64,000 bases of DNA from Deltaproteobacteria bacterium (lineage in GTDB: Bacteria; Desulfobacterota; Dissulfuribacteria; Dissulfuribacterales; QOAL01), in the NCBI GenBank assembly GCA_026986785.1, contig JALSNW010000023.1:1-64000 (forward strand). The letters are read 5' to 3'. Below the pieces are notes generated by a model. It saw only the letters and a list, made by a program, of their open reading frames with translations. It was not told the origin of the DNA and did no database searches. Numbering within the stretch: the first letter of the stretch is position 1; each line of letters opens with the position of its first letter. The position numbers and the translations under genes are program-made. Shown in pieces: positions 20,012 to 60,019 of this stretch.

Positions 20012-20881
20012 CTATGTATTGGGATGGGGCGTCGTCTGGTTTGTCTGGCCTCCAGGATATTCTGGCAATGAGATATCCCTCCATTTGAACATAAGGGCAG
20101 ACACCTTGCAGCTATCCACGCATTTCCCGCAGTTCCAGCAATAGGCAGAAAAACACTCCTGCTTTATTGGGTCGAGGCCTAATGGACACACCTTCTTGCA
20201 CGTACCGCATTCTATGCATTTCCCCATGTCTGTAGAGATTGCAAGTCTGCGTTTTGCCCCTATGATGCCTAACAATGCCCCAAGTGGGCAAAGATAACGG
20301 CAAAAAAAACGCTGTGATACAAGATGTAATAAGACTACGGCTATGACAATCAGGCCCTCTATGGCAACCGTGTGAAAGAGGGTGATCATCATGATCTCAC
20401 GGCCCACGAGACCTGGAGGCGAGAGAAACACAAATATTGGTGTCCCTATGACAAGGGTGAGTATTATCTCACCAAGGAGGGCATACCATAGAGTCTTTTT
20501 GGGCAGCGGACTGTGCTGCCTCCTGAACCTCTTTCTTGTGAAGAGCCCAAGACATCTATCCAGGATATCTGAAAGAAAACTTATGGGGCAGATCCAGCTA
20601 CAATAGACCCTGCCCAGCAAGGAGGCCAGAAGAACAGGCCAAGCCATGCCAATGAGTAGGGGGCCATATAGCTTTTTCGAGGTCAGGATGCTCTCCATGC
20701 CTTCAAGGGGAGAGACAAACCAAAGATGCCCAATACTAAGACTCTGAAACCATCCCTGAATAAAGCTGATATGCAGATACTTATTCAGGATTGGCACAAG
20801 GAGGAGGAGGCAAAATGCCATAGTGAGGCTCAAGAGCCTGAGGCGATTATAGTAGGTTGCTCTGCTGGATTCTTTCGACAT
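20012..20881 (-). CDS. napH: NapH-type membrane ferredoxin, quinol dehydrogenase component
   Basis: 289 residues with four to five membrane segments. Two paired-Cys motifs of the NapH/NosR type are seen (VYCSWICPISF and FFCRYLCPLGA), plus a C-terminal cytoplasmic pair of 4Fe-4S motifs (CIECGTCKKVCPLG and CWNCGKCVDSCK). NapH with NapG passes quinol electrons toward the periplasmic nitrate reductase. It is the last gene of the minus-strand nap series, 9 bp after napG. No terminator with a clear U-run was seen in the 24 bp to dut. Confidence 0.92.
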   Translation of the reverse strand: MSKESSRATYYNRLRLLSLTMAFCLLLLVPILNKYLHISFIQGWFQSLSIGHLWFVSPLEGMESILTSKKLYGPLLIGMAWPVLLASLLGRVYCSWICPISFLSDILDRCLGLFTRKRFRRQHSPLPKKTLWYALLGEIILTLVIGTPIFVFLSPPGLVGREIMMITLFHTVAIEGLIVIAVVLLHLVSQRFFCRYLCPLGALLGIIGAKRRLAISTDMGKCIECGTCKKVCPLGLDPIKQECFSAYCWNCGKCVDSCKVSALMFKWRDISLPEYPGGQTNQTTPHPNT

Positions 20882-20890
20882 TTGGGCTGT

Positions 20891-21571
20891 TTACCATCTT
20901 ACAGGTTTGAATGCATAGATTGGTTCTATGTTGATGGCCTTTTCTCCATCTTTTCTGGTGATAGGACATCCATGGGTGCAGATACCACAGCCTGTGCAAT
21001 ATTCCTCGATTACGACAGGGCGGAGTTGATCCAGTTTTATGGCCTTTTCCTTGAATGGACATACGTTGTAACAGGTCCTGCATAGGGCCAGTTCCTGATT
21101 CCATGTTACACAGGCGTGCTTATCGATAACGGCCAGTCCCATCCTGGTCTCGGCCTGCGGTATTCTTGAAAGTGTGCCAGTAGGGCATACCTCTACGCAT
21201 TTCATGCAGAGATAGCATGGTATTTTTTTTACATCTATAAGGGGGGTGCCGGCAAAGACGCCTTTTCTTATGTCAAGCGGCACTATGGCTTGATAGGGAC
21301 ATACCTCTACACAGCGTCCACATCGTATGCACCTTGCAGGAAAGATCTCTTCGGGTACTGCCCCAGGGGGACGAAGTATATTGGTATGCACTGGAGAGCT
21401 GATCCAGGACTTTGCAGGAGAGGGCTTTGGGGCAAGCCAGCAGGTAGCGATTGTTCCCAATGAAGCAGCGGCAAGCCTCAAGACCTGCCTTCTATTGAAT
21501 TGTCTCTTTTCCAAGGGACCTTGCTGGGACGTATCTGCCTGATTCGATTTTTTCGACTTCATCTTCCGCAT
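20891..21571 (-). CDS. napG: NapG-type periplasmic ferredoxin (four 4Fe-4S)
   Basis: 226 residues. A twin-arginine-like signal (FNRRQVLRLAAASLGTIA) lies at about residues 25-42, so export folded by Tat is likely. Four Cys groups follow: CIRCGRCVEVCP, CYLCMKCVEVCP, CRTCYNVCP with an upstream partner Cys, and CTGCGICTHGCP. The gene overlaps napD by 80 bp in a different frame, unusually long. A TTG at 21514 would cut the overlap to 23 bp but leaves almost no n-region before the RR motif. Confidence 0.92.
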   Translation of the reverse strand: MRKMKSKKSNQADTSQQGPLEKRQFNRRQVLRLAAASLGTIATCWLAPKPSPAKSWISSPVHTNILRPPGAVPEEIFPARCIRCGRCVEVCPYQAIVPLDIRKGVFAGTPLIDVKKIPCYLCMKCVEVCPTGTLSRIPQAETRMGLAVIDKHACVTWNQELALCRTCYNVCPFKEKAIKLDQLRPVVIEEYCTGCGICTHGCPITRKDGEKAINIEPIYAFKPVRW

Positions 21572-21788
21572 TGAAATAGGTGAGTCCTACGGTTAGAACA
21601 TGTTGCTGGGCCATTATGGTTCTAACCATTTCTTCCATCTGTTCGGATGTCTCGCTTTCAAGGACTACGACTACGTTTCCTTTTTCATCAGAGCCGTGTA
21701 TCTCCAGGCCCTCTATCCTACGTAATGAAGCCAGGGCGGACTCAATAGAGTCAGGGTGTACATTTACTACGAAACCGCCGATGGGCAT
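21492..21788 (-). CDS. napD: NapD, chaperone for nitrate reductase maturation
   Basis: 98 residues beginning MPIGGFVVNVHPDSIESALASLRRIEGLEIHG, the ferredoxin-like NapD pattern in which the N-terminal strand binds the NapA twin-arginine signal. GNVVVVLE and the helix after it also fit. NapD stays in the cytoplasm and holds NapA until its molybdenum cofactor is inserted. An AGGAGGACA ribosome site precedes the ATG. It follows an unidentified exported protein rather than napA directly. Confidence 0.9.
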   Translation of the reverse strand: MPIGGFVVNVHPDSIESALASLRRIEGLEIHGSDEKGNVVVVLESETSEQMEEMVRTIMAQQHVLTVGLTYFNAEDEVEKIESGRYVPARSLGKETIQ

Positions 21789-21800
21789 GGGTTGTCCTCC

Positions 21801-22490
21801 TCATGGTCTTTGGATCTTCTTGTTCCCTGATATCCGTTTTTCAAGATAGGATGTGGACCTAATATGTGTGTTGCCGAATGGGGATAGAATACCCTGGAGC
21901 ACATCTGCCGTTAAGAGGCCGTCCAGACTTTCCTCGTCTTCGAAACAGACCATAGAGCCATGCACAGGTTGACTCAGGGCGCTTATGGCCTGTTTCTTTA
22001 GCTTATGCATGAAACCATGATTGCATTTTTCATCACCCATGATTATTGCAGAGCACCTTGCTACATATGCCCTAATTCTGCCCTGGAAACATTCTATGCC
22101 TGCATTCTTACAAAACTTTACCATCTCTGGACCTGGCAGCTGTGACAATTCTACATATCTTGCCTGTAGATCAATCCTCCGTAGCAGTTCTAACCATTCG
22201 TGTTCAGCATATTTACCCCCAATTTTTCTTGCCATCTCGAGAACAGCCCTTGTGCCCCTGAGGTATGGAAAACCCGAGATACGATAGAGCTGTTTACACC
22301 TCGTCTTGTTCTTGTCAATCAGCCTGTCCATGATTAGCCAGGTACTAGCGCAGGTCTTGGCCTTGGTATGGCCAAATGAAAATGGCGAACTGTTGCCAGA
22401 TGAATCAGTATCTGGCTGCGCCTTTACTATAGATAGGCTGGAGACAAGGAGAAACCCTAACAATAAAATGATATGGATGGTTCTTTTCAT
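21801..22490 (-). CDS. Unidentified exported protein between napA and napD
   Basis: 229 residues from the ATG at 22490; an upstream in-frame ATG at 22529 would add 13 residues before the signal. The N-terminus is a classical signal peptide (MKRTIHIILLLGFLLVSS, cleavage probably after IVKAQ). The mature part is basic, has several Cys (KTCAS, TRCKQL, KFCKNAGIECFQG, YVARCSAIIMGDEKCNHG) but no CxxCH, and has no family I recognise. It lies 68 bp after napA and 12 bp before napD, so it is almost surely made with the nitrate reductase. The Cys pattern could mean disulfides or metal binding; I do not assign a function. Confidence 0.75.
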   Translation of the reverse strand: MKRTIHIILLLGFLLVSSLSIVKAQPDTDSSGNSSPFSFGHTKAKTCASTWLIMDRLIDKNKTRCKQLYRISGFPYLRGTRAVLEMARKIGGKYAEHEWLELLRRIDLQARYVELSQLPGPEMVKFCKNAGIECFQGRIRAYVARCSAIIMGDEKCNHGFMHKLKKQAISALSQPVHGSMVCFEDEESLDGLLTADVLQGILSPFGNTHIRSTSYLEKRISGNKKIQRP

Positions 22491-22558
22491 TGCTGCTCTT
22501 GGCACCAGGGCCATCAGATGGTCAAACATGGTATCACTGGCCCTGGTAATCCCTTTTC

Positions 22559-24964
22559 TTATGACAATTCAACGATAAATGGCCTCAATGGTTTTGGCCC
22601 AGACACCTTCTTTATGCGACAGGCGCAGATTTTGAATTCTGGTTCTTTGGAACCTGGATCAAATGCGTCTTTGGTAACCCTATTGATCATGCGTTCCTCT
22701 TTCATGTCGTGCCAGTAGACAAAAACCATGCCTTCACACGGGCCTACGTATACCTTGGCAGGAAGGATATTTTTGCCCCTTCTGGAAGATACTTCCACCA
22801 TATCTCCAGGTCTTATACCTAGTTTCTCTGCATCCTTTGGATTGATCTCGACAAAGGCATAGGGGTTGGCCCTTATGAGTTCGGGTATCCTGCCTGTCAT
22901 GCTGCTGGTATGCCAATGGTCGATGACTCGGCCTGTGGATAGATAAAAGGGATATTCGGAATCAGGCATTTCTTCCGGACCCTTTTGTGGCCTGAGCCAG
23001 ACCCAGAGTTTTTTATCAGGATGGGCAGGTCCATAGAACTGAAACGGCATTTCATTGGTGGCATGTTCATCGGCCAACGGATCTATACCCCTTACAAATT
23101 TTATATCAGTTCCCCCTTTCAGAGCGAATTCCTTGGTAGGAGCGGGCCATTGGACCCCGTCTGGCAGTTGCTCCAGAACCTCGTATGTTGCCCCCCTGAG
23201 GTCATTGTCTCTACCCTTGGTGAGTTTTTGGGTGTACTCGTCCCAGATGGCCTTTGGGAGTTCATAGTCTGGTTCCTTGTTCAGGAAAGGCTCTACACAT
23301 TTTTTTATAACAGGGTCATTGAGTTGCTTGGAGAGCTTGAGGGCCCATTGCCTGACTATCCATACCTCAGGCATCGCATCTCCAGGGGCATCGATGGCCT
23401 TTCTCGTGAGTTGGGAACGCCTTTCGGTGCAACCATATACGCCAGTCTTTTCAAAGATGAACGCAGTGGGCAGGATCAGGTTTGCAAGCTCTGTCGTCCT
23501 GGTGGGGAAGATATCTGTCACCACCATGAAAACATCCTGTCTTGCCATCCCCTTGCGATATTTATCACAATTTGGAAGGCTCTGTGCAGGGCTTGTACAG
23601 TTGATCCAGATCGCCTTGATCTTCCCCTGATTCACTGCCTCGAACATGGCTATCGTATGATAGCCTGGTTTGGAAGGAATTCTACCCTGGGGGATGCCCC
23701 AGAGCCTTTCTACCTCGTGGCGCAGCCTGTTTTTCTTTACCAACCTGTGTGCAGGCAGTATGTGACACAACCCCCCACCTTCTCGTACTCCACCACAGGC
23801 ATTTGGCTGACCAGTGAGGGAAAAGCTGTCTGCCCCAGGTCTGCAGAGCTGACCTGTGAGGATGTGGAGGTTATGAATGAGATTGTTGGCCCAGACCCCT
23901 CGTTTTCTCTGGTTTATCCCCATGGTCCACAGACTCATGGTGCCTTCGGATGTGGCAAACCAGCGGGCTGCTGTCCTGATCTTGTCGGCTGTGATATTGC
24001 CTTTGCATATCTGGGCGGCCTTTTCAGGGGTATAGGCAGAGAGAAATTTCTTGTATTCTTCAAAAGAGACCTGTTTCTTGTCTTTGCCTTTTCTGAAAAC
24101 AGAGTAATTTTTCAAAAAATCTTCATTATAGAGCTTTTCATCGATAATCACATAGGCCATTGCATTTAAGAGGGCCAGATCAGTACCTGGTTCAAACACC
24201 AAGTCCAGATCTGCTATCCTGGAGGTGGGGGAGATACGTGGATCGGCATTAATGACCTTGACTGTGTCCCTATGGTCCATCTTTCTCCTCATGATTCTTC
24301 TGAAGAGGACGGGATGGGCCTCTGCAGTATTGCTCCCGATGATGAAAAAGCAATTGGCCCTTTCAAAATTGGCATAGCTTCCTATTGGTTCGTCTGCGCC
24401 AAAGGAAGTGATATAGCCTCCTACAGCGCTTGCCATACACAGTCTGGGATTACCCTCAACATTGTTGGTCTTTAGTCCTCCTCTCATAACCTTTTGAAAT
24501 ATATAGGTCTCTTCTGTGAGGGCCTGGCCAGAACCATAGTAGGCAACGGCATCGTTCCCATGTTTTTTTATGGCCTTGGCGAATTCCTTTGCTGCAATAT
24601 CGAGGGCCTCATCCCACGATATCTCCTTGAAGGGCTGGTCTTTTCTCTTGCGGTACAAGGGTTTTTTCAGACGATCCGGGTGGTTGTTTCCCATAAGCTT
24701 GTAGAAAAGCATACCCTTCATGCAAAGATAGCCAAAATTTGTCCTGGACTTGGATATGCCTCTGAGGGCAACCGCACGCCCATTCTTTACTCCAAGCTCC
24801 AGACGGCACCCAGATCCGCAAAGACGGCAAGTGCCTGGATGCCAACTGTCTGCATCTGATGCTTGTGCTACTCCTTCCAGGCTTATGGGCAGATTCATGC
24901 CAATATATGATGCTGCTGTCAAAGCAGCAGTTCTCTTTAGGAAATCTCTTCTTGAAAGGCCCAT
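22559..24964 (-). CDS. napA: Periplasmic nitrate reductase catalytic subunit NapA
   Basis: 801 residues, near the size of the monomeric Desulfovibrio enzyme. A twin-arginine signal (SRRDFLKRTAAL) begins the protein. Four Cys bind the 4Fe-4S cluster (C46, C49, C53, C81), and Cys176 in NPRLCMASAV is the expected molybdenum ligand (canonical NxRxCMASAV). The GTD/LALLNAMAYVIIDE and STGRVIDHWHTSSMTGR segments are typical of the bis-MGD family. It reduces nitrate to nitrite in the periplasm. No napB is nearby; napM directly upstream probably replaces it. Confidence 0.95.
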   Translation of the reverse strand: MGLSRRDFLKRTAALTAASYIGMNLPISLEGVAQASDADSWHPGTCRLCGSGCRLELGVKNGRAVALRGISKSRTNFGYLCMKGMLFYKLMGNNHPDRLKKPLYRKRKDQPFKEISWDEALDIAAKEFAKAIKKHGNDAVAYYGSGQALTEETYIFQKVMRGGLKTNNVEGNPRLCMASAVGGYITSFGADEPIGSYANFERANCFFIIGSNTAEAHPVLFRRIMRRKMDHRDTVKVINADPRISPTSRIADLDLVFEPGTDLALLNAMAYVIIDEKLYNEDFLKNYSVFRKGKDKKQVSFEEYKKFLSAYTPEKAAQICKGNITADKIRTAARWFATSEGTMSLWTMGINQRKRGVWANNLIHNLHILTGQLCRPGADSFSLTGQPNACGGVREGGGLCHILPAHRLVKKNRLRHEVERLWGIPQGRIPSKPGYHTIAMFEAVNQGKIKAIWINCTSPAQSLPNCDKYRKGMARQDVFMVVTDIFPTRTTELANLILPTAFIFEKTGVYGCTERRSQLTRKAIDAPGDAMPEVWIVRQWALKLSKQLNDPVIKKCVEPFLNKEPDYELPKAIWDEYTQKLTKGRDNDLRGATYEVLEQLPDGVQWPAPTKEFALKGGTDIKFVRGIDPLADEHATNEMPFQFYGPAHPDKKLWVWLRPQKGPEEMPDSEYPFYLSTGRVIDHWHTSSMTGRIPELIRANPYAFVEINPKDAEKLGIRPGDMVEVSSRRGKNILPAKVYVGPCEGMVFVYWHDMKEERMINRVTKDAFDPGSKEPEFKICACRIKKVSGPKPLRPFIVELS

Positions 24965-24979
24965 ATTTACCTCCCTGTT

Positions 24980-25357
24980 TTACTTATGAACGAAAAAGTT
25001 ATGTGCTGGATGACAAGCCCAACACCTCTTGTCCTTGGGGCGCTTCAGGTATTGTTTGTTGTGGCAGGCTGCACAGTGGGTCTCGTCAGGTTCTGTACGT
25101 AGATTTTCATAGGTTCCGTGGCACTGAAAGCACTTGACATTGGCTATGCCATGTACGGAGTTGTACCACTCCTTGTAGATTTCCGGTGTAGCCTCCTTGT
25201 GGCACTGGGAACAAGGGGTCAACTTTTCTTGCTGGCTGAGTTTTGGGTGAGATGCCTGCCCTGCAGAAGCATATGCGGCATGTGGAAATATGATGGACAG
25301 AAATATGAAGAAAAGGGTTAAGGGCTGTATAATGTCTTTTTTCAGCTCTATAGTCAC
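24980..25357 (-). CDS. napM: NapM-like tetrahaem cytochrome c
   Basis: 125 residues from the GTG at 25357, with AGGAGG 6 bp upstream. A signal peptide (LTLFFIFLSIIFPHAAYASA) is followed by four CxxCH haem sites (CSQCH, CFQCH, CAACH, CWACH). NapM is the small multihaem cytochrome of the napCMADGH operon type known from Desulfovibrio and Campylobacterota relatives. It is thought to carry electrons to NapA where NapB is missing. It lies 15 bp before napA and behind a terminator-like hairpin. Confidence 0.88.
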   Translation of the reverse strand: MTIELKKDIIQPLTLFFIFLSIIFPHAAYASAGQASHPKLSQQEKLTPCSQCHKEATPEIYKEWYNSVHGIANVKCFQCHGTYENLRTEPDETHCAACHNKQYLKRPKDKRCWACHPAHNFFVHK

Positions 25358-52423: not shown

Positions 52424-53527
52424 TTATAAAAGTCGCTTGTATACTTCTACTGTCTTTGCTGCAGTCTTTTCCCAGCTAAAGTCTCTTAGTCTCTTTTTCC
52501 CCCTGCTTACAAGGTCCTGGACCATGTGGTCATCGAGGATGATGGTCTTTATAGCCTCCCTTATCTTTCTTATATCATAGGGGTCAACCAGGACTGCAGC
52601 CCCCCCTGCTACTTCAGGCATAGAAGAACAGTTGGAGGTGACCACAGGGATCCCGGCCTTGAATCCCTCGAGGATAGGCAGGCCAAATCCTTCATAAAGA
52701 CTGACAAATATAAGCCCATTGGCACAGATGAGCCACGAGATTATATCATCAACAGGACCTGGAGTAAAAACATGTCTCGACCTGACGGAAAAAGATGAAG
52801 GAAGTCGGCCAAGGATTACAAGGCCTGTATCTCGCGGAAGTTCTGGCAGGGCTGCATGAAACGCCTCAATCGTCCTTTCCACGTTTTTTCTCCTGTCTTT
52901 GGAGGAGAAGGAGACCAGGTATTTTTCAAAGCTCAAGCCGTACTTTGCCAAGAGGGCATGTCTCATCTCCTTCAATTGTCTGGAGCTTAACTGGGGAATG
53001 TCCAGGCTACAGGCGAGATGGACCACATGGATCTTGTCTGGTTCGATATCAAAGATCCTGCAGAGATCTTTTTTGGTCTCTTCAGAGATTGCAATAAAGT
53101 GCCTGGCCCTTTTGACCGCGATTTCAAAAGGCCTGAGATTGGATTTTGGATATAGCCCAGGATGAATATAGCGCCTCAGGTCGTGAACCGTCATGAGGGT
53201 TGGTCTTTTTTCGCGAGGTGGCATAAAATGATGAAAGCAATGATAGAGTTCGAAGTCCCCGACCAGGGATCTCAAGGATGGCACTGGTAGAAACTTCCAG
53301 ATAGTTTGGAGCCATCTAAACTTGTATATACATGGCTTGGCCTCTGCCCAAGACCCAAGTCCTTTCATCAGTGTAGTTGCCAATCCTTCAAACCTCTTCT
53401 GGTAAAAAAGGATCATCTCTGGCCTTGTGTCAATGCTGTTCATCCCGTGGAGGAGCCCTGATGCAAAGGTGTAAAAGCCTGAATACCTATTTCTGAGGGC
53501 AGCATCCAGGTCGAAGGCTATGCGCAT
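52424..53527 (-). CDS. GT4-type glycosyltransferase
   Basis: 367 residues. It starts MRIAFDLDAALRNRYSGFYTFASGLL and contains YLVSFSSKDRRKNVERTIEAFHAA and FVSLYEGFGLPILEGFKAGIPVVTSNCSSMPEVAGGAAVLVDPYD, the GT4 donor-binding E-x7-E. It is the first gene of the minus-strand LPS set. The 193-bp gap upstream, shared with the divergent transglutaminase-like gene, should contain both promoters; nothing clear was identified there. Confidence 0.9.
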   Translation of the reverse strand: MRIAFDLDAALRNRYSGFYTFASGLLHGMNSIDTRPEMILFYQKRFEGLATTLMKGLGSWAEAKPCIYKFRWLQTIWKFLPVPSLRSLVGDFELYHCFHHFMPPREKRPTLMTVHDLRRYIHPGLYPKSNLRPFEIAVKRARHFIAISEETKKDLCRIFDIEPDKIHVVHLACSLDIPQLSSRQLKEMRHALLAKYGLSFEKYLVSFSSKDRRKNVERTIEAFHAALPELPRDTGLVILGRLPSSFSVRSRHVFTPGPVDDIISWLICANGLIFVSLYEGFGLPILEGFKAGIPVVTSNCSSMPEVAGGAAVLVDPYDIRKIREAIKTIILDDHMVQDLVSRGKKRLRDFSWEKTAAKTVEVYKRLL

Positions 53528-53720: not shown

Positions 53721-54845
53721 ATGCCTGGCACAGCGTCCCTTATTCAGAATCTTGTGCTTGCTTTTTCTGGAACTTTATGTTTTTTCATTTGTGTGATGAA
53801 TGCCAAAAAAATAACAACTTCACATATGGTTGTCGGGTTCTTTTTATTCCTGTCCTTTTTTGCCTGTCAGGATGCTGGGGCCAGCTTGGTCAAGGCCAAG
53901 GTCGTCTTTAAAATAGATCTCAGTTCCAAGGCAAAAGACAAGGAGGCCAAGCTGTGGCTACCATACCCTGTCTCTGACAATTACCAACTGGTTTCTGACA
54001 TCAGGGTGAGTGGCACTTTTGAAGCGCGAGGGGTCTATACTGATCGAAGATACAAGACCCCGGTCTTATATCTATACTGGTCACCCCATACGAGGTACAA
54101 GATCGCCTCTTTTTCCTTTGATGTTGAAAGGGCAGAGAGAAAGGAGAGAGCAGATTCAGCAGGGAAGGGCGAGGGGTGTGTGGACAGGCAATTTTTCAAG
54201 TTGTTTCTTCAAGCTACGCGTCTTGCCCCTGTGGATCCAAGGCTCCAGGTCTTGGCAAAGAAGATTACCAAGGCAAGGACAGATGTTTTTTCAAAGGCCA
54301 AGGCAATCTACGACTGGGTGACCATGCACATGAGACGTAATCCCAAGGTCAATGGCTGCGGAAATGGAGATGTTTGTATGCTATTGAATACCCTCTCTGG
54401 TAAGTGTGCAGACATACACTCTGTATTTGTAGCCCTCTTGAAGGCATCTGGCATACCAGCGAGGGAGGTATTTGGGCTGAGGCTTTCCAAGGACCAGAGT
54501 GCAGACATAACCACCTGGCAGCATTGCTGGGCCGAATTCTATCTGCCAGGGTACGGCTGGTTTGTTTCTGATCCTGGTGATTATCTAAAGGCCCTCTTGG
54601 TGAAAGGTTTGGACCCCCAATCAGATAGGGCAAGGAAACTCCATGGATATTTTTTTGGAACAATCGATCCATACCGGGTCCGATTGAGCATAGGACGGGA
54701 CATAGAATTAAATCCCAAGGCCAGTGGTTCTCCACTTAATTATCTCATGTACCCATATGCTGAGATAGAAGGTCTGCCCATAGATTATCTATCTCCCAGG
54801 GAATTTTCCTATAGGATATTGCAGGAGGCCCCAGATGGAGAGTAA
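53721..54845 (+). CDS. Exported transglutaminase-like protein
   Basis: 374 residues. AAGGA precedes the ATG at 53721; another ATG at 53796 would place the hydrophobic segment MVVGFFLFLSFFACQ as a cleaner signal peptide. The transglutaminase core has the triad Cys229 (SGKCADIH), His268 (WQHCWAEFYLPGYGW) and Asp284 (SDPGD). The N-terminal part is a beta-rich domain. Bacterial members are proteases or cross-linkers in the periplasm. The stop overlaps the following Tat ferredoxin by 11 bp, so they are probably co-produced. The joint role is unknown. Confidence 0.85.
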   Translation: MPGTASLIQNLVLAFSGTLCFFICVMNAKKITTSHMVVGFFLFLSFFACQDAGASLVKAKVVFKIDLSSKAKDKEAKLWLPYPVSDNYQLVSDIRVSGTFEARGVYTDRRYKTPVLYLYWSPHTRYKIASFSFDVERAERKERADSAGKGEGCVDRQFFKLFLQATRLAPVDPRLQVLAKKITKARTDVFSKAKAIYDWVTMHMRRNPKVNGCGNGDVCMLLNTLSGKCADIHSVFVALLKASGIPAREVFGLRLSKDQSADITTWQHCWAEFYLPGYGWFVSDPGDYLKALLVKGLDPQSDRARKLHGYFFGTIDPYRVRLSIGRDIELNPKASGSPLNYLMYPYAEIEGLPIDYLSPREFSYRILQEAPDGE

Positions 54846-55512
54846 TCTCTTTTCAAGGCGCTCCTTTTTAAAGATGAGTTTTTGGGCCATTGGGCTGTTA
54901 TCGGGTGGAGATGTGGCGATGTCTATGAAAGGACCTTGGCCTTCTTATGCCATGATAATAGATCTCCAAAGATGCATGGGATGCGAGGCCTGTGTAGTGG
55001 CCTGTAAGATCGCTCAGGATACCCCTTATGGGGTTTTCAATACGATCATCGCAGGGTTCAAAGACAAGTTCTCCGAAGGGCCTGACCTTTTCATGCCCCT
55101 TCTTTGCAACCATTGTGAAGATCCTCCATGTCAAAAGGTCTGTCCCCAGGGAGCCATCTCCAAGCTTGACAATGGCATTGTGGTTACAGATTGGGGCCTC
55201 TGCGATGGAGAAGGCCTTTGTGTCAAGGCATGCCCCTTCAATGCCCGTCATCTTGATCCTCGATATTCCTTCAGGTCTGCAAAGTGTGATTTTTGTGTGG
55301 AGAGGCTTGCAAAAGGGGCTGTGCCAATCTGCGTCGAGACCTGCCCAAGCCACGCCAGACTCTTTGGGGACCTGAACGATCCATTAGGGGAATTCAAGGA
55401 ATACCTCGATAAAGGCGGGCTTTTCTCCCTTGGGAAAAAACATGGACTTGATACCAGAGTATTTTATGCCGGTCTTTCATTCTCCGAGAACAGGGGTCTC
55501 TTGTCGAAGTAG
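54835..55512 (+). CDS. Tat-exported four-cluster ferredoxin subunit (TtrB/PsrB/DmsB-like)
   Basis: 225 residues with a twin-arginine signal (SRRSFLKMSFWAIGLLSG). Cys groups: C47/50/53/57, C91/94/99/103, a third group C123/129/133 where the second Cys is Glu126 (CDGEGLCVKAC), and C151/154/166/170. Substitution at this site in DmsB or NarH gives a 3Fe-4S cluster, so the same is likely here. It should carry electrons to the adjacent molybdoenzyme, 17 bp downstream. Confidence 0.9.
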   Translation: MESNLFSRRSFLKMSFWAIGLLSGGDVAMSMKGPWPSYAMIIDLQRCMGCEACVVACKIAQDTPYGVFNTIIAGFKDKFSEGPDLFMPLLCNHCEDPPCQKVCPQGAISKLDNGIVVTDWGLCDGEGLCVKACPFNARHLDPRYSFRSAKCDFCVERLAKGAVPICVETCPSHARLFGDLNDPLGEFKEYLDKGGLFSLGKKHGLDTRVFYAGLSFSENRGLLSK

Positions 55513-55529
55513 GAGGGAGATGGTCCAGC

Positions 55530-58415
55530 ATGAAGCTTCCTTGTGTAGTAAAGAAGGCCATTGAATGTCTCGATGACAGAGACATCAATGTGATCCATAC
55601 CGTGTGTCTGGGATGTAATGCACGATGCGGCCTCAGATGCAAGGTGATAGGCGGTCATGTCAAGGAGATCTCTGGAAATCCCTATCATCCTTACAATAGG
55701 CTTGGTAGCCCGATTCCCTATGGTACATCCATAAGAGATTCCATCAATATTGGCGCAAGCACCTGCGGAAAACCCCTTGAAATAGATGGATACTGTTTTA
55801 ATGAAAGAAGGATACTTGTGCCGCTAAAAAGGGCGGGCAAGAGAGGGGAGGGGAAATTCGAACCCATCTCCTGGGAAAAGCTCATTGAAGAGATCTCAGA
55901 AGGCGGAAGGCTTTTTGCCCATATTGGCGAAGATAGACATGTCCCAGGCCTTAGGGGGCTTTTGAGCGATGAGCCCATTGACGAAAGGCTGCCTTGGCTT
56001 GGGAGTAAGAGAAACAAATTCCTATTTTTGACAGGACGTCTTCAGTCAGGCAGAAAGGAGTTCATCGACAGATTTGTGAAGTCCAGTTTTGGCTCCATCA
56101 ACAGGATAGGCCATACGGATATATGCGGTCTTGGTTTCAGAATGGGGAATTTTGCCTTTACTGAAGGCAGGCAGGTGGAGCTAAAGGCAGATCCATGGAA
56201 CGCCAAGTACATAATCGTCTTTGGGGCCAATATCTATGAGGCCCTCCAGCCTGGCCTCAATACCTACGGGGCAACCCTTGCCAAGAGGCATTCAGAAGGG
56301 CAGGTGCGGTTCGTCATCGTCGATCCAAGGGCCCAAAAGGCAGGATGCCATGCCCACAAATGGGTAAAGATCATGCCTGGCCAAGATGGTGCCTTTGTCC
56401 TTGGTATGATGAGAAGGATCATAGAAAAAGAAAGCTACAACATCGCATATCTCCAGGCCCCAAACGAAGATGCGGCAAGGGCCCTTGGAAACGGCGCTTA
56501 CGTAAATGCGACACATCTTGTCATCTGGGAAAAAGGACATCCCAGATACGGTCGTTTCTTACGCATGAGGGATCTAATAACCCGGGACCGAGGTGAAAAA
56601 GACGATTACGTCGTTATAGATGAGCTGTCAGGTCTTCCCTGTTCATTCAGAGAGGTTAATAGGGCAAGGCTTTTTTTCAATGGAGAGATTGATACATCAG
56701 ATGGCAGGCGCATCAGGGTCAAAACCACCTTTCAAATAGTAAAGGAAGAGGCCTTTAGGTATCCCCTTTCAGGGTTCGCCCGCCTCTGCCGAGTTCCAGA
56801 AGAGGTCATTTGTGAGGTGGCCGACGAGTTCATGGCAAATGCCCCTTACAGCGCCACTTGCCAGTATCACGGGGCAGGGAACTATGTAAACGGTACCTAT
56901 GCTGCCTATGCGATCGCAATGTTGAATGCCTTCTCTGGCAGTATTGGCAGAAAAGGTGGCTATCTGGCCAGTGGCGGAGGGTTTGGTTCATGGAAGAACG
57001 GGAGATACAAACTAAATGACTTCCCAGGAAAGAGGCATCCTTCAGGAATACGGATATCCCGGGAGAAGGCAAAATTTGAGGGAAAACCGCCTGCCAAAAG
57101 GCCTTGGTTTCCCTTTACCAAGGGAGGACTGTGCGTAGAGGCCCTATCTGGAGTGGATGAGGCCTATCCCTATGGCATAGATGTCTTATTCCTCTATTTT
57201 TTTAATCCGGTCTATTCCATACCTGGAGGCAGAAGGTTCATTTCCACCCTCAAGGATGAAAACAAGGCGCCCCTTATCGTTTCCATTGATATAGGCATTA
57301 ACGAATCCAATATATATGCCGATTACATAGTGCCAGATGTTACCTATATCGAGGGGCAATATGGTTGGCTTTCTCCCCATGCCCCTGGCTTCAGATTTAC
57401 AGGGTTGAGGAGCCCTGCAATAGAACCGGTTACCAAAAGCTGTGATGACGGACGTCCCTTTTGTCTTGAGACCTTTTTGATAGACTTGGCCAAGAGACTC
57501 GATCTTCCCGGATTTGGCCAAAGGGCCATACCTGTAGTGGGTGAAAAGCAAGATCAGATGCAGCACTTGCCCCTCAACCGTGCAGAGGACTTCTATCTGA
57601 GGGCATATGCGAACATATGTGAAAGTGCAGGGAATATAGAGCCAGATCCTGAAGCTACCAGGTTTGTTGAGAGAAACTATCCTGTTGCCAGGTTCAAGGA
57701 CATACTGAGAAAAGATGAGTGGGAGAAGCTCTGTTTTGCCTTGGCAAGAGGGGGGATATTTCAGGGTTACGAGAAGGGGTTCTCAGGTAGTATCTTTAGA
57801 TATGGACCAAAGAGGTTCGTGCTCTACAATGAAGTGCTTGCAGGACTCAGGTGCTCTATCACAGGTAAGAAATTTTGGGGTTCTCTAAGGTATGTTCCCC
57901 CTGTTTATTCCCAGAACAGGGACTATCCCTTTGTGATGGTAAGTTATAAGACAGCCCTACAGACCCAATCGAGGACTATTTGGCACAAAGTGGCCATTGA
58001 ACTCCATGCTGAAAATCATGTCGAGATGCATCCTGAAGATGCCAGGGCCCTTGGCCTCGGCGATATGGACAAGGTTCGTATCATCTCGCCTTGGTCAAAG
58101 AAGGGAGTGGTTGGCCTAATGAAGATATCCGATAGAGTAAGAAGGGGGGTGGTGGCCATATCCATATCCTATGGCCACAGCCAGCTTGGGGCACAGTCAC
58201 TCTGGATTAAAGATGCAAGCAAGGCGGTGTTAGGAGGGGCAAAGGTCTGTAAGGCCAACGAGGTGATTGGGAATAAGGGCCTGGGACAAGGTGTGAATCC
58301 AAACCGTCTTTCAGCCCTGGACCCCCATTTTCACAATACCCCATTGGTGGATCTCGTTGGAGGCATACCTGACTTCAGTTCCTCCTGTGTGAGGATAGAA
58401 CCCTATGCCTTGTAA
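55530..58415 (+). CDS. Molybdopterin oxidoreductase, TtrA/SreA-like catalytic subunit
   Basis: 961 residues. C26, C29, C33 and C79 fit the 4Fe-4S site; the long gap before the fourth Cys is like tetrathionate/sulfur/arsenate reductases of the TtrA-SreA-ArrA kind. Cys199 (GHTDICGLG) is the expected molybdenum ligand. ASGGGFGSW, VSIDIGINESNIYADYIVPDVTYIEGQ and the C-terminal HAENHVEMHPEDARALGLGDMDKVRI fit the family. No Tat signal is seen, so export may depend on the ferredoxin partner. The substrate is probably an inorganic sulfur compound, by inference. No NrfD/TtrC-type anchor follows. Confidence 0.85.
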   Translation: MKLPCVVKKAIECLDDRDINVIHTVCLGCNARCGLRCKVIGGHVKEISGNPYHPYNRLGSPIPYGTSIRDSINIGASTCGKPLEIDGYCFNERRILVPLKRAGKRGEGKFEPISWEKLIEEISEGGRLFAHIGEDRHVPGLRGLLSDEPIDERLPWLGSKRNKFLFLTGRLQSGRKEFIDRFVKSSFGSINRIGHTDICGLGFRMGNFAFTEGRQVELKADPWNAKYIIVFGANIYEALQPGLNTYGATLAKRHSEGQVRFVIVDPRAQKAGCHAHKWVKIMPGQDGAFVLGMMRRIIEKESYNIAYLQAPNEDAARALGNGAYVNATHLVIWEKGHPRYGRFLRMRDLITRDRGEKDDYVVIDELSGLPCSFREVNRARLFFNGEIDTSDGRRIRVKTTFQIVKEEAFRYPLSGFARLCRVPEEVICEVADEFMANAPYSATCQYHGAGNYVNGTYAAYAIAMLNAFSGSIGRKGGYLASGGGFGSWKNGRYKLNDFPGKRHPSGIRISREKAKFEGKPPAKRPWFPFTKGGLCVEALSGVDEAYPYGIDVLFLYFFNPVYSIPGGRRFISTLKDENKAPLIVSIDIGINESNIYADYIVPDVTYIEGQYGWLSPHAPGFRFTGLRSPAIEPVTKSCDDGRPFCLETFLIDLAKRLDLPGFGQRAIPVVGEKQDQMQHLPLNRAEDFYLRAYANICESAGNIEPDPEATRFVERNYPVARFKDILRKDEWEKLCFALARGGIFQGYEKGFSGSIFRYGPKRFVLYNEVLAGLRCSITGKKFWGSLRYVPPVYSQNRDYPFVMVSYKTALQTQSRTIWHKVAIELHAENHVEMHPEDARALGLGDMDKVRIISPWSKKGVVGLMKISDRVRRGVVAISISYGHSQLGAQSLWIKDASKAVLGGAKVCKANEVIGNKGLGQGVNPNRLSALDPHFHNTPLVDLVGGIPDFSSSCVRIEPYAL

Positions 58416-58477: not shown

Positions 58478-60019
58478 CTATTTTGGGGCAGCATAATCGA
58501 TAATCTCCTTGTACTTGTCTTGCCAAGGCACGTGGAATCGAGTGTAGTGCCGAATGATTTCTCCAAGGATTGGCCTGCCTGGGACAAGTTCCTCAAGACT
58601 TAGGCCAATGCGCCTGATGTCTGAAATACGTTGTGCTGAGGTGAGTTTTTTTTCTATCCTGGTGGCATCCAGGTCAAAAATCATAAGTTGGCCTCTTTTC
58701 TCAGGAGAATAGACAAAATTTGTGATCTTACAATCTCCATGAACAACACCCCTTTCGTGCATCTGCCACAAGAAGACAGAAATATTCTTTATGAAATGGT
58801 CTTCAGGCCCTTCAAGTGCTGACTTTACAAAGGCCTTGGTGGCCTGCACCTCTTTGATCCATGGAAATATGACAGCCCCATATATGGTCTTCCAGGGATT
58901 TCTGCTTTGTACGGCAGCAAGTGGGAGCAGTACAGGTATGTTTCGAAAGGCAAGCTGCCAAGATAGCTCCCAGGTCCTTAATGCCCTTGGTGTTCTGACG
59001 AGATAGGACAGGGACTTCATGGTCCCGGAACTTCGATATGCCTTGATGAAAAAGGACTGATCCTGGGAAGACACCCTGAGACACAAGGTATGGCGGGAAT
59101 CTTTTATGATGGTACAGGTTTTTGTTTCTGACAGCCATTTCTCAGGCCCCTTGATTATTGATAAAAGCAGGTCCTGGATGGCCTTGTCTGTGTTTATGTG
59201 TCTAATCTCCAGGATCCCCTCTCGCCGTGAACGGATCTGTCTTTGTTTTATCTTCCTTGGCCCCTTCTTGCTCCAATGTCTGCGCATATTTCCAAAGGCT
59301 TGATTTTGTATCTTGTATCTTTCTCCCTTGTCTTTCAGTACTGGGATGAGCTCAGACAGAAATAAGGTTGTTTCAAGAATGGCCCTCCCATTCACGCTCT
59401 CCATAAAGGGTGGCAGGACAAAACTCAATTGATCGAGTATCAGCTTGTGTATTGGCGAGTTCTCACATCTTGCCCTGTGAAGATCGAGCATCAAAAAGAT
59501 GTCGTCTTTTTCTTGATAAAAGATATTGTTTAGGTGAAAATCTGGCTGAAGAATGCCAGAATCTGCCAATCTTTTGAGAAAAATAGCAAATTTGCGTTCA
59601 ATCTCTTTTTGTCTCTGCCTGGAAAGGGAAACGAAACTGTCCTTGAGGTATTCCTCCAAGACCTGGCCAGATGCCTCTTTTGATACAAAGTAAGACCACT
59701 TTCCCCAAGTACCGAAGGCTACGGGCCTTGGACTCAAGCCTCTTTCAGCAAGGATTTTCGAAAGTCTCCATTCTTTCTTGGCAGGGTCCCTGAGTCTCCC
59801 TGCCGGCCAGGGAAGAAGCTTGAAGGCCTTTATATAATATCCTTTCGCCTTGAAGACCTTTCTTTTTTCAGTCTCTTTGACCAGAGAGGTCTCTTGGCTC
59901 CAGATCTCTTCAGGATCAAAAGAGGGCTCGGCTATGCTCCAAGAACTAGGGGGTGGACACTTGGTCGGAAATGGACTCATGTTATAGTTTTTAACTGCTG
60001 TCGGATACCTTTTGATCAA
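58478..60019 (-). CDS. Protein with two LPS-kinase-like modules
   Basis: 513 residues from a TTG that overlaps the heptosyltransferase stop (TTGA); ATG 59980 is the alternative. The first kinase-like module has Lys64 (YYIKAF), the catalytic loop PDFHLNN (159-165) and LDLHR. The second has Lys326 (FFIKAYR), VHGDCKITNF (426-435) and FDLDA. Both resemble WaaP/RfaY/InaA-type kinases that phosphorylate heptose or Kdo of the LPS core. Two modules in one chain is unusual; one may be regulatory or each may act on a different residue. Confidence 0.82.
   Translation of the reverse strand: MIKRYPTAVKNYNMSPFPTKCPPPSSWSIAEPSFDPEEIWSQETSLVKETEKRKVFKAKGYYIKAFKLLPWPAGRLRDPAKKEWRLSKILAERGLSPRPVAFGTWGKWSYFVSKEASGQVLEEYLKDSFVSLSRQRQKEIERKFAIFLKRLADSGILQPDFHLNNIFYQEKDDIFLMLDLHRARCENSPIHKLILDQLSFVLPPFMESVNGRAILETTLFLSELIPVLKDKGERYKIQNQAFGNMRRHWSKKGPRKIKQRQIRSRREGILEIRHINTDKAIQDLLLSIIKGPEKWLSETKTCTIIKDSRHTLCLRVSSQDQSFFIKAYRSSGTMKSLSYLVRTPRALRTWELSWQLAFRNIPVLLPLAAVQSRNPWKTIYGAVIFPWIKEVQATKAFVKSALEGPEDHFIKNISVFLWQMHERGVVHGDCKITNFVYSPEKRGQLMIFDLDATRIEKKLTSAQRISDIRRIGLSLEELVPGRPILGEIIRHYTRFHVPWQDKYKEIIDYAAPK

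Follow-up and report, generated by a model that had tools for sequence, protein, structure and literature searches.

Within a 64,000-nucleotide stretch of contig JALSNW010000023.1 (GenBank assembly GCA_026986785.1, from a deltaproteobacterium placed by GTDB in the order Dissulfuribacterales) – hereafter the window – three consecutive genes encode a secreted transglutaminase-like protein (TG), a TtrB-like ferredoxin with a twin-arginine translocation (Tat) signal and a TtrA-like molybdopterin catalytic subunit, called the large subunit below (Table 1). The first two reading frames overlap by 11 bp, the second and third lie 17 bp apart, and the trio is flanked on either side by genes on the opposite strand. 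Published accounts of respiratory molybdoenzymes of this type make them quinone enzymes anchored in the membrane; in the clade examined here, a TG-fold partner takes the place of the anchor throughout. The original prediction, made from the sequence of the window alone, had presented the three genes as one unit lacking a membrane anchor: its reading frames, coordinates and spacing turned out to be exact to the base, the next gene does lie on the opposite strand, the unit is conserved, and no NrfD gene is present at the window locus or at 16 homologous loci.

Searches with the large subunit across 60 relatives and a 395-genome sample of the phylum yielded close homologues, at no less than 49% identity, in 19 genomes, of which G006, G016 and G018 were set outside the count, their contig ends cutting inside the large-subunit gene. 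At the loci with intact flanks (G000, G004, G005, G008, G020, G022, G027, G030, G196, G243, G272, G285, G305, G343, G395 and G413), found without reference to TG, a TG gene lies directly beside the large-subunit gene or is separated from it by the ferredoxin gene alone in 16/16 cases, and NrfD was found at none of them. As TG itself (E ≤ 1e-60) occurs in 48 of the 395 sampled genomes, at one copy per genome, the association is not one of chance. Within the phylum, the pair is found in several GTDB families and in three arrangements: TG–ferredoxin–large subunit, ferredoxin–large subunit–TG and, in seven genomes, a fused ferredoxin–large subunit gene followed by TG. On the tree, the fusion requires one change, in one clade in which TG is retained, and the upstream or downstream position of TG requires four. 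That the neighbourhood has no functional meaning is scarcely credible when the pair persists from one family to another and through both reordering and fusion of the genes, and we found nothing in its favour beyond the existence of TG as a stand-alone gene.

An apparent absence of TG from the genus g133 was rejected as an artefact of the strict E-value, since a very divergent TG (25–30% identity) lies directly downstream in 4/4 of its members. Nine more loci in named genomes (Desulfobulbaceae, Desulfocapsaceae and Bacterium BMS3Bbin14) have the same pair, a sample biased by having been found through TG; at one of them, L117, the large-subunit gene is a fragment only. The fused proteins (L168, L169, L170, L171, L173, L174 and L175), with the ferredoxin at the N-terminus of the TtrA-like subunit, measure 1063–1200 amino acids (aa) and have one Tat signal; those of L168 and L173 retain half of the cluster cysteines.

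More distant relatives are arranged differently. All seven TtrA-like loci with 30–36% identity to the window protein (L176-L182) consist of ferredoxin, NrfD and large subunit without TG, and the NrfD arrangement recurs at a locus on an Azospirillum plasmid. In the two sets of genomic loci, TG stands beside 16/16 anchorless as against 0/7 NrfD-linked large subunits (Fisher p = 4e-6, a value that ignores kinship). When 41 large subunits are placed in a maximum-likelihood tree, a single branch (SH-aLRT 97) parts 24 TG-linked from 12 NrfD-labelled sequences, and the split corresponds to one change as against a mean of 10.2 for shuffled labels; a quick method was used for the trees, the NrfD-linked side of the comparison is thinly sampled, and in one of its 12 members, Citrobacter L185, the gene at the NrfD position is annotated only as hypothetical.

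The large subunit matches the Pfam models Molybdopterin (PF00384; 59.9 bits), Molydop_binding (PF01568; 46.3) and Molybdop_Fe4S4 (PF04879; 26.9), and retains both the FS0 cysteines (26/29/33/79) and the Mo-ligand cysteine (199). Its best NCBIfam match is TtrA (NF011567), at 503.8 bits far from the equivalog cut-off of 1750, and among solved structures it comes closest in sequence to ArrA (6cz7) and to a chain that bears the name thiosulfate reductase (2vpw). The ferredoxin likewise matches TtrB best (NF011569; 156.6 bits, under the cut-off of 416), together with the Pfam family Fer4_11 (PF13247; 78.7 bits, 4e-22). With an FS0-cysteine molybdopterin subunit, a multi-cluster ferredoxin and all four Pfam domains above cut-off, the pair belongs to the complex iron–sulfur molybdoenzymes (CISM) of the dimethyl sulfoxide (DMSO) reductase superfamily. 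The window genome's large subunit lacks a Tat signal and would cross the membrane together with the ferredoxin, which starts with the Tat-type motif SRRSFLK.

What sets the ferredoxin apart is its fourth cluster. The second cysteine of motif III is, in DMSO reductase, a ligand of FS4, the cluster beside the menaquinol site. In the alignment, the window ferredoxin has Glu at this position (CDGEGLCVKACP), leaving it with 15 cysteines rather than the 16, for four [4Fe-4S] clusters, expected of a TtrB (PMC8076601 Table 1). The cysteine is kept in 8/8 NrfD-linked ferredoxins, whereas among the 21 TG-linked ones that have the region, 14 carry Glu, Asp, Ser, Lys, Leu or His and seven Cys, and in two further ones (G413 and G343) the motif III region and half of the cysteines are deleted. 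Substitution or deletion thus affects 16/23 TG-linked against 0/8 NrfD-linked ferredoxins (Fisher p = 0.0008, again ignoring kinship), with five changes of the ligand needed on the tree. Such a loss would fit a complex freed from electron exchange with a quinone site in the membrane; with the quinone-side cluster often decayed and the anchor swapped, a different electron outlet is therefore implied.

An anchor might instead be encoded elsewhere and shared, in which case the ferredoxin–large subunit pair would use a quinone-reactive protein such as DsrP of DsrMKJOP and its link to TG would be incidental. At least one NrfD is indeed present in all 15 trio-bearing genomes searched and in the window genome, which has two: DsrP (contig C51) and one beside an aldehyde ferredoxin oxidoreductase-like gene (the DsrP/dsrMKJOP and aldehyde ferredoxin oxidoreductase names being our reading of the sequences). 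The latter was tried as a dedicated anchor and rejected: relatives have it whether or not they bear the trio, and nothing matches it in G027, a 99% complete genome that bears the trio and whose single NrfD agrees with DsrP in length and profile span. An unlinked anchor dedicated to the pair is thus not required, and neither of the two refuting outcomes named along with the original prediction materialised, the trio being conserved and no dedicated unlinked NrfD co-occurring with it. DsrP, for its part, belongs to a general sulfite-reduction complex. Two membrane genes downstream of the trio in G022 would also suit a membrane partner, but the other trio loci that were read showed no such pair, and most members have lost the FS4 ligand; we consider a shared membrane partner very improbable. 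The G022 genes (L043 1082-3642) encode a 443-aa, weakly cytochrome bd-I-like protein and a 408-aa protein without a Pfam match. Most relatives within the order have kept the pairing of NrfD with the aldehyde ferredoxin oxidoreductase-like gene (L183, G000:C51:82000-92000).

TG belongs to the transglutaminase-core superfamily (PF01841; 87.7 bits against a cut-off of 23, 7.7e-25). Its Cys–His–Asp triad (C204, H243 and D259, numbered from the start at 53796) occupies columns that are invariant across 47 homologues, from which we predict a catalytically competent cysteine enzyme. An AlphaFold2 model (pLDDT 93.7, pTM 0.89) has its best structural matches in 3isr, a putative bacterial cysteine protease, and in the periplasmic domain of Pseudomonas aeruginosa TgpA (6g49). 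In alignments, most homologues begin at the equivalent of Met-26 and have a single N-terminal signal; the longer start at 53721 is therefore probably not used, and the 'N-terminal hydrophobic segments' of the original prediction are most likely one Sec signal peptide. The suggestion that TG replaces the anchor through these segments was accordingly abandoned: homologues carry one signal peptide of the cleavable type, and TG is unlikely to serve purely as an anchor.

Table 1 Features of the trio and its immediate surroundings in the window
Feature	Position	Strand	Remarks
Preceding gene	52424-53527	-	
TG gene, secreted transglutaminase-like protein	53721..54845	+	374 aa as called; PF01841
Alternative, likelier TG start codon (ATG)	53796..53798	+	Matches start of most homologues; inference from alignments
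TtrB-like ferredoxin gene with Tat signal	54835..55512	+	PF13247; 15 Cys
TtrA-like molybdopterin catalytic subunit gene	55530..58415	+	961 aa
Following gene	58478-60019	-	

The reading that we favour, tentatively, is that the pair forms a soluble periplasmic oxidoreductase, derived from the TtrAB branch and uncoupled from quinones, with TG as an obligate enzyme that modifies the complex. In this scheme, electrons would pass between Mo and FS0–FS3 and a soluble carrier – for instance of the cytochrome c3 type, to which family six matches were found in the window genome – in place of NrfD and menaquinone, the substrate of the molybdoenzyme being probably an inorganic sulfur compound. In the periplasm, TG would act on a protein of the complex, by processing, amide hydrolysis or transamidation, as a step of maturation or modification.

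Several observations weigh against this reading. Seven of the 23 TG-linked ferredoxins still have the motif III cysteine, so that the loss of FS4 is a tendency, not a rule. TG homologues are distributed more broadly than the trio, and in Geobacterales and Desulfobulbales they are often found without a molybdoenzyme neighbour; furthermore, the TtrA-linked TGs do not form one clade (10 changes on the tree, of which at least 4 are forced). Both the stand-alone TGs and this scattered ancestry argue against a dedicated maturation factor. Finally, the link between TG and the enzyme is one of gene neighbourhood, which is no proof that the proteins interact physically.

The same distribution would suit TG as a pathway enzyme that, through its cysteine chemistry, forms, splits or takes up the (sulfur) compound subsequently oxidised or reduced by the molybdoenzyme, without acting on the molybdoenzyme itself. 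TGs without a molybdoenzyme have recurrent neighbours – secreted rhodaneses (6 loci), HgdA-type dehydratase/activator pairs (8) and LysR regulators (18) – and a rhodanese also adjoins two NrfD-linked TtrA loci of the order, while the TtrA-linked TGs, including the divergent one of g133, appear to have been recruited or left behind several times. Known TG-fold enzymes, in contrast, mostly target protein or peptide amides, and to our knowledge no sulfur chemistry has been described for the fold. We regard this role as a real possibility, ranking close behind processing or modification of the complex.

TG could also be a stable third subunit, docked on the ferredoxin or large subunit in NrfD's stead as a scaffold or adaptor, with catalysis secondary. 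It does replace NrfD gene for gene, and TG-linked large subunits share a clade-private block of 14 residues (aa 894–907 in the window protein) with an invariant Gly–Gly as well as many other clade-specific residues, which could form an interface. Against this stand the invariance of the triad in 47 sequences and the absence of one co-inherited TG lineage among the partners, and we think such a role rather unlikely.

TG also has other surroundings. In four genomes of the same order that have TG without the trio (G007, G009, G011 and G012), TG is divergently oriented from another Tat-exported molybdoenzyme of ~780 aa, with best matches below cut-off to formate dehydrogenase and PhsA models; these are 4/4 determinable cases, G013 and G015 having a contig end on that side of TG, and the pairing with a second exported molybdoenzyme speaks for the reading favoured above. 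The same divergent arrangement is seen at L050, L051, L052, L055 and L124 (sub-cut-off Fdh/PhsA/Nas matches), with LysR and ClC-type genes at some. A secreted rhodanese-like gene lies directly upstream of a stand-alone TG in Geobacterales and Desulfocapsa (L065 4220-4636, L101 8513-8950 and L110 8484-8903), and an HgdA-type dehydratase with a BadF/HgdC-type activator lies near TG in Desulfobulbales and Geobacter (L079, L126, L133, L136, L138 and L102). Suggestive only are distant TGs (32–34% identity) near selD/selB/selA/fdhE on Rhizobium and Sinorhizobium plasmids (L186, L187) and one beside MerT in a Providencia plasmid record. Promoter and terminator scans gave no more matches than shuffled sequence did. 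Positions 20012-25294 of the window hold genes of the periplasmic nitrate reductase type (NapA-like, 22559-24964; NapG-like; NapH-like); immediately upstream, at 25061-25294, is a match to a c3-type cytochrome.

More generally, these loci may represent a distinct class of Desulfobacterota molybdo-iron–sulfur enzymes, independent of quinones and free of NrfD, that work only with a secreted TG. The TG would either modify the complex or handle a sulfur substrate through its cysteine, steps for which we know of no parallel in molybdoenzymes, and the class would take part in dissimilatory sulfur metabolism, disproportionation for example; we put this forward with reserve. The order of the window genome includes obligate sulfur disproportionators, in which it has yet to be established what enzymes initiate the process; the TG–molybdoenzyme pair offers a definite gene to target and might serve as a marker in genomes. 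As a requirement for disproportionation it was rejected: Dissulfurimicrobium hydrothermale (G023), of the same order, has an NrfD-linked TtrA-like locus and no match to the trio, which is therefore not necessary for the process. A survey of disproportionators (PMC9751629) found TtrABC proteins to be made specifically when Desulfolithobacter disproportionates thiosulfate; in one related organism, whose enzyme has TtrC, no thiosulfate-disproportionation-specific proteins are more abundant than those of the TtrA type.

Among known systems, 3isr and TgpA (6g49) share the core fold of TG at 15–18% identity, and neither entry's description includes a redox partner. Ethylbenzene dehydrogenase (EbDH, PMC8840923) resembles the trio in being a soluble periplasmic molybdoenzyme with an altered FS4, a [3Fe-4S] cluster in its case. 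In the type II soluble enzymes (EbDH/DdhABC/SerABC), however, the third subunit is a heme-b protein; the window protein scores 102.7 bits against 984.75 for TIGR03479, and the locus has no heme-b gamma gene. The MOLY cluster of sulfur disproportionators, MolyABC (PMC12998232), is likewise a probably exported Desulfobacterota AB pair without a membrane anchor. By its description, however, MolyA stands apart from TtrA and is accompanied by a TorD-type chaperone, MolyC, whereas the trio has TG and no adjacent TorD/DmsD gene (PF02613 matches lie on contigs C19 and C17, outside the window); transglutaminase is not mentioned in PMC12998232. A TorD-type chaperone gene followed by a frame for a 778-aa molybdoenzyme (G000:C19:30012-31000) may be a MOLY-type cluster of its own.

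The closest comparison is with tetrathionate reductase, TtrABC, to which both redox subunits find their best matches and with which they share the FS0 and Mo-ligand cysteines. The differences lie in scores far under the equivalog cut-offs (1750 and 416), the absence of TtrC or NrfD, the loss of the FS4 ligand and the addition of TG. TtrAB pairs without TtrC have been reported (PMC9751629) from Caldimicrobium thiodismutans, Dissulfuribacter thermophilus and Desulfobulbus propionicus. Anchorless and from the same or related lineages, they are probably the same enzyme group, to judge by their description rather than by sequence comparison; the paper mentions no transglutaminase, and its account of TtrAB no ferredoxin–large subunit fusion or change at FS4. 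The original prediction had been made in knowledge of no described coupling of a transglutaminase fold with such an oxidoreductase, and none came to light in the open-access literature searched, in which no paper combines 'transglutaminase' with 'sulfur disproportionation' – not in itself proof of novelty. Anchorless TtrAB was thus already known (PMC9751629), while the link to TG and the loss of FS4 appear to be new.

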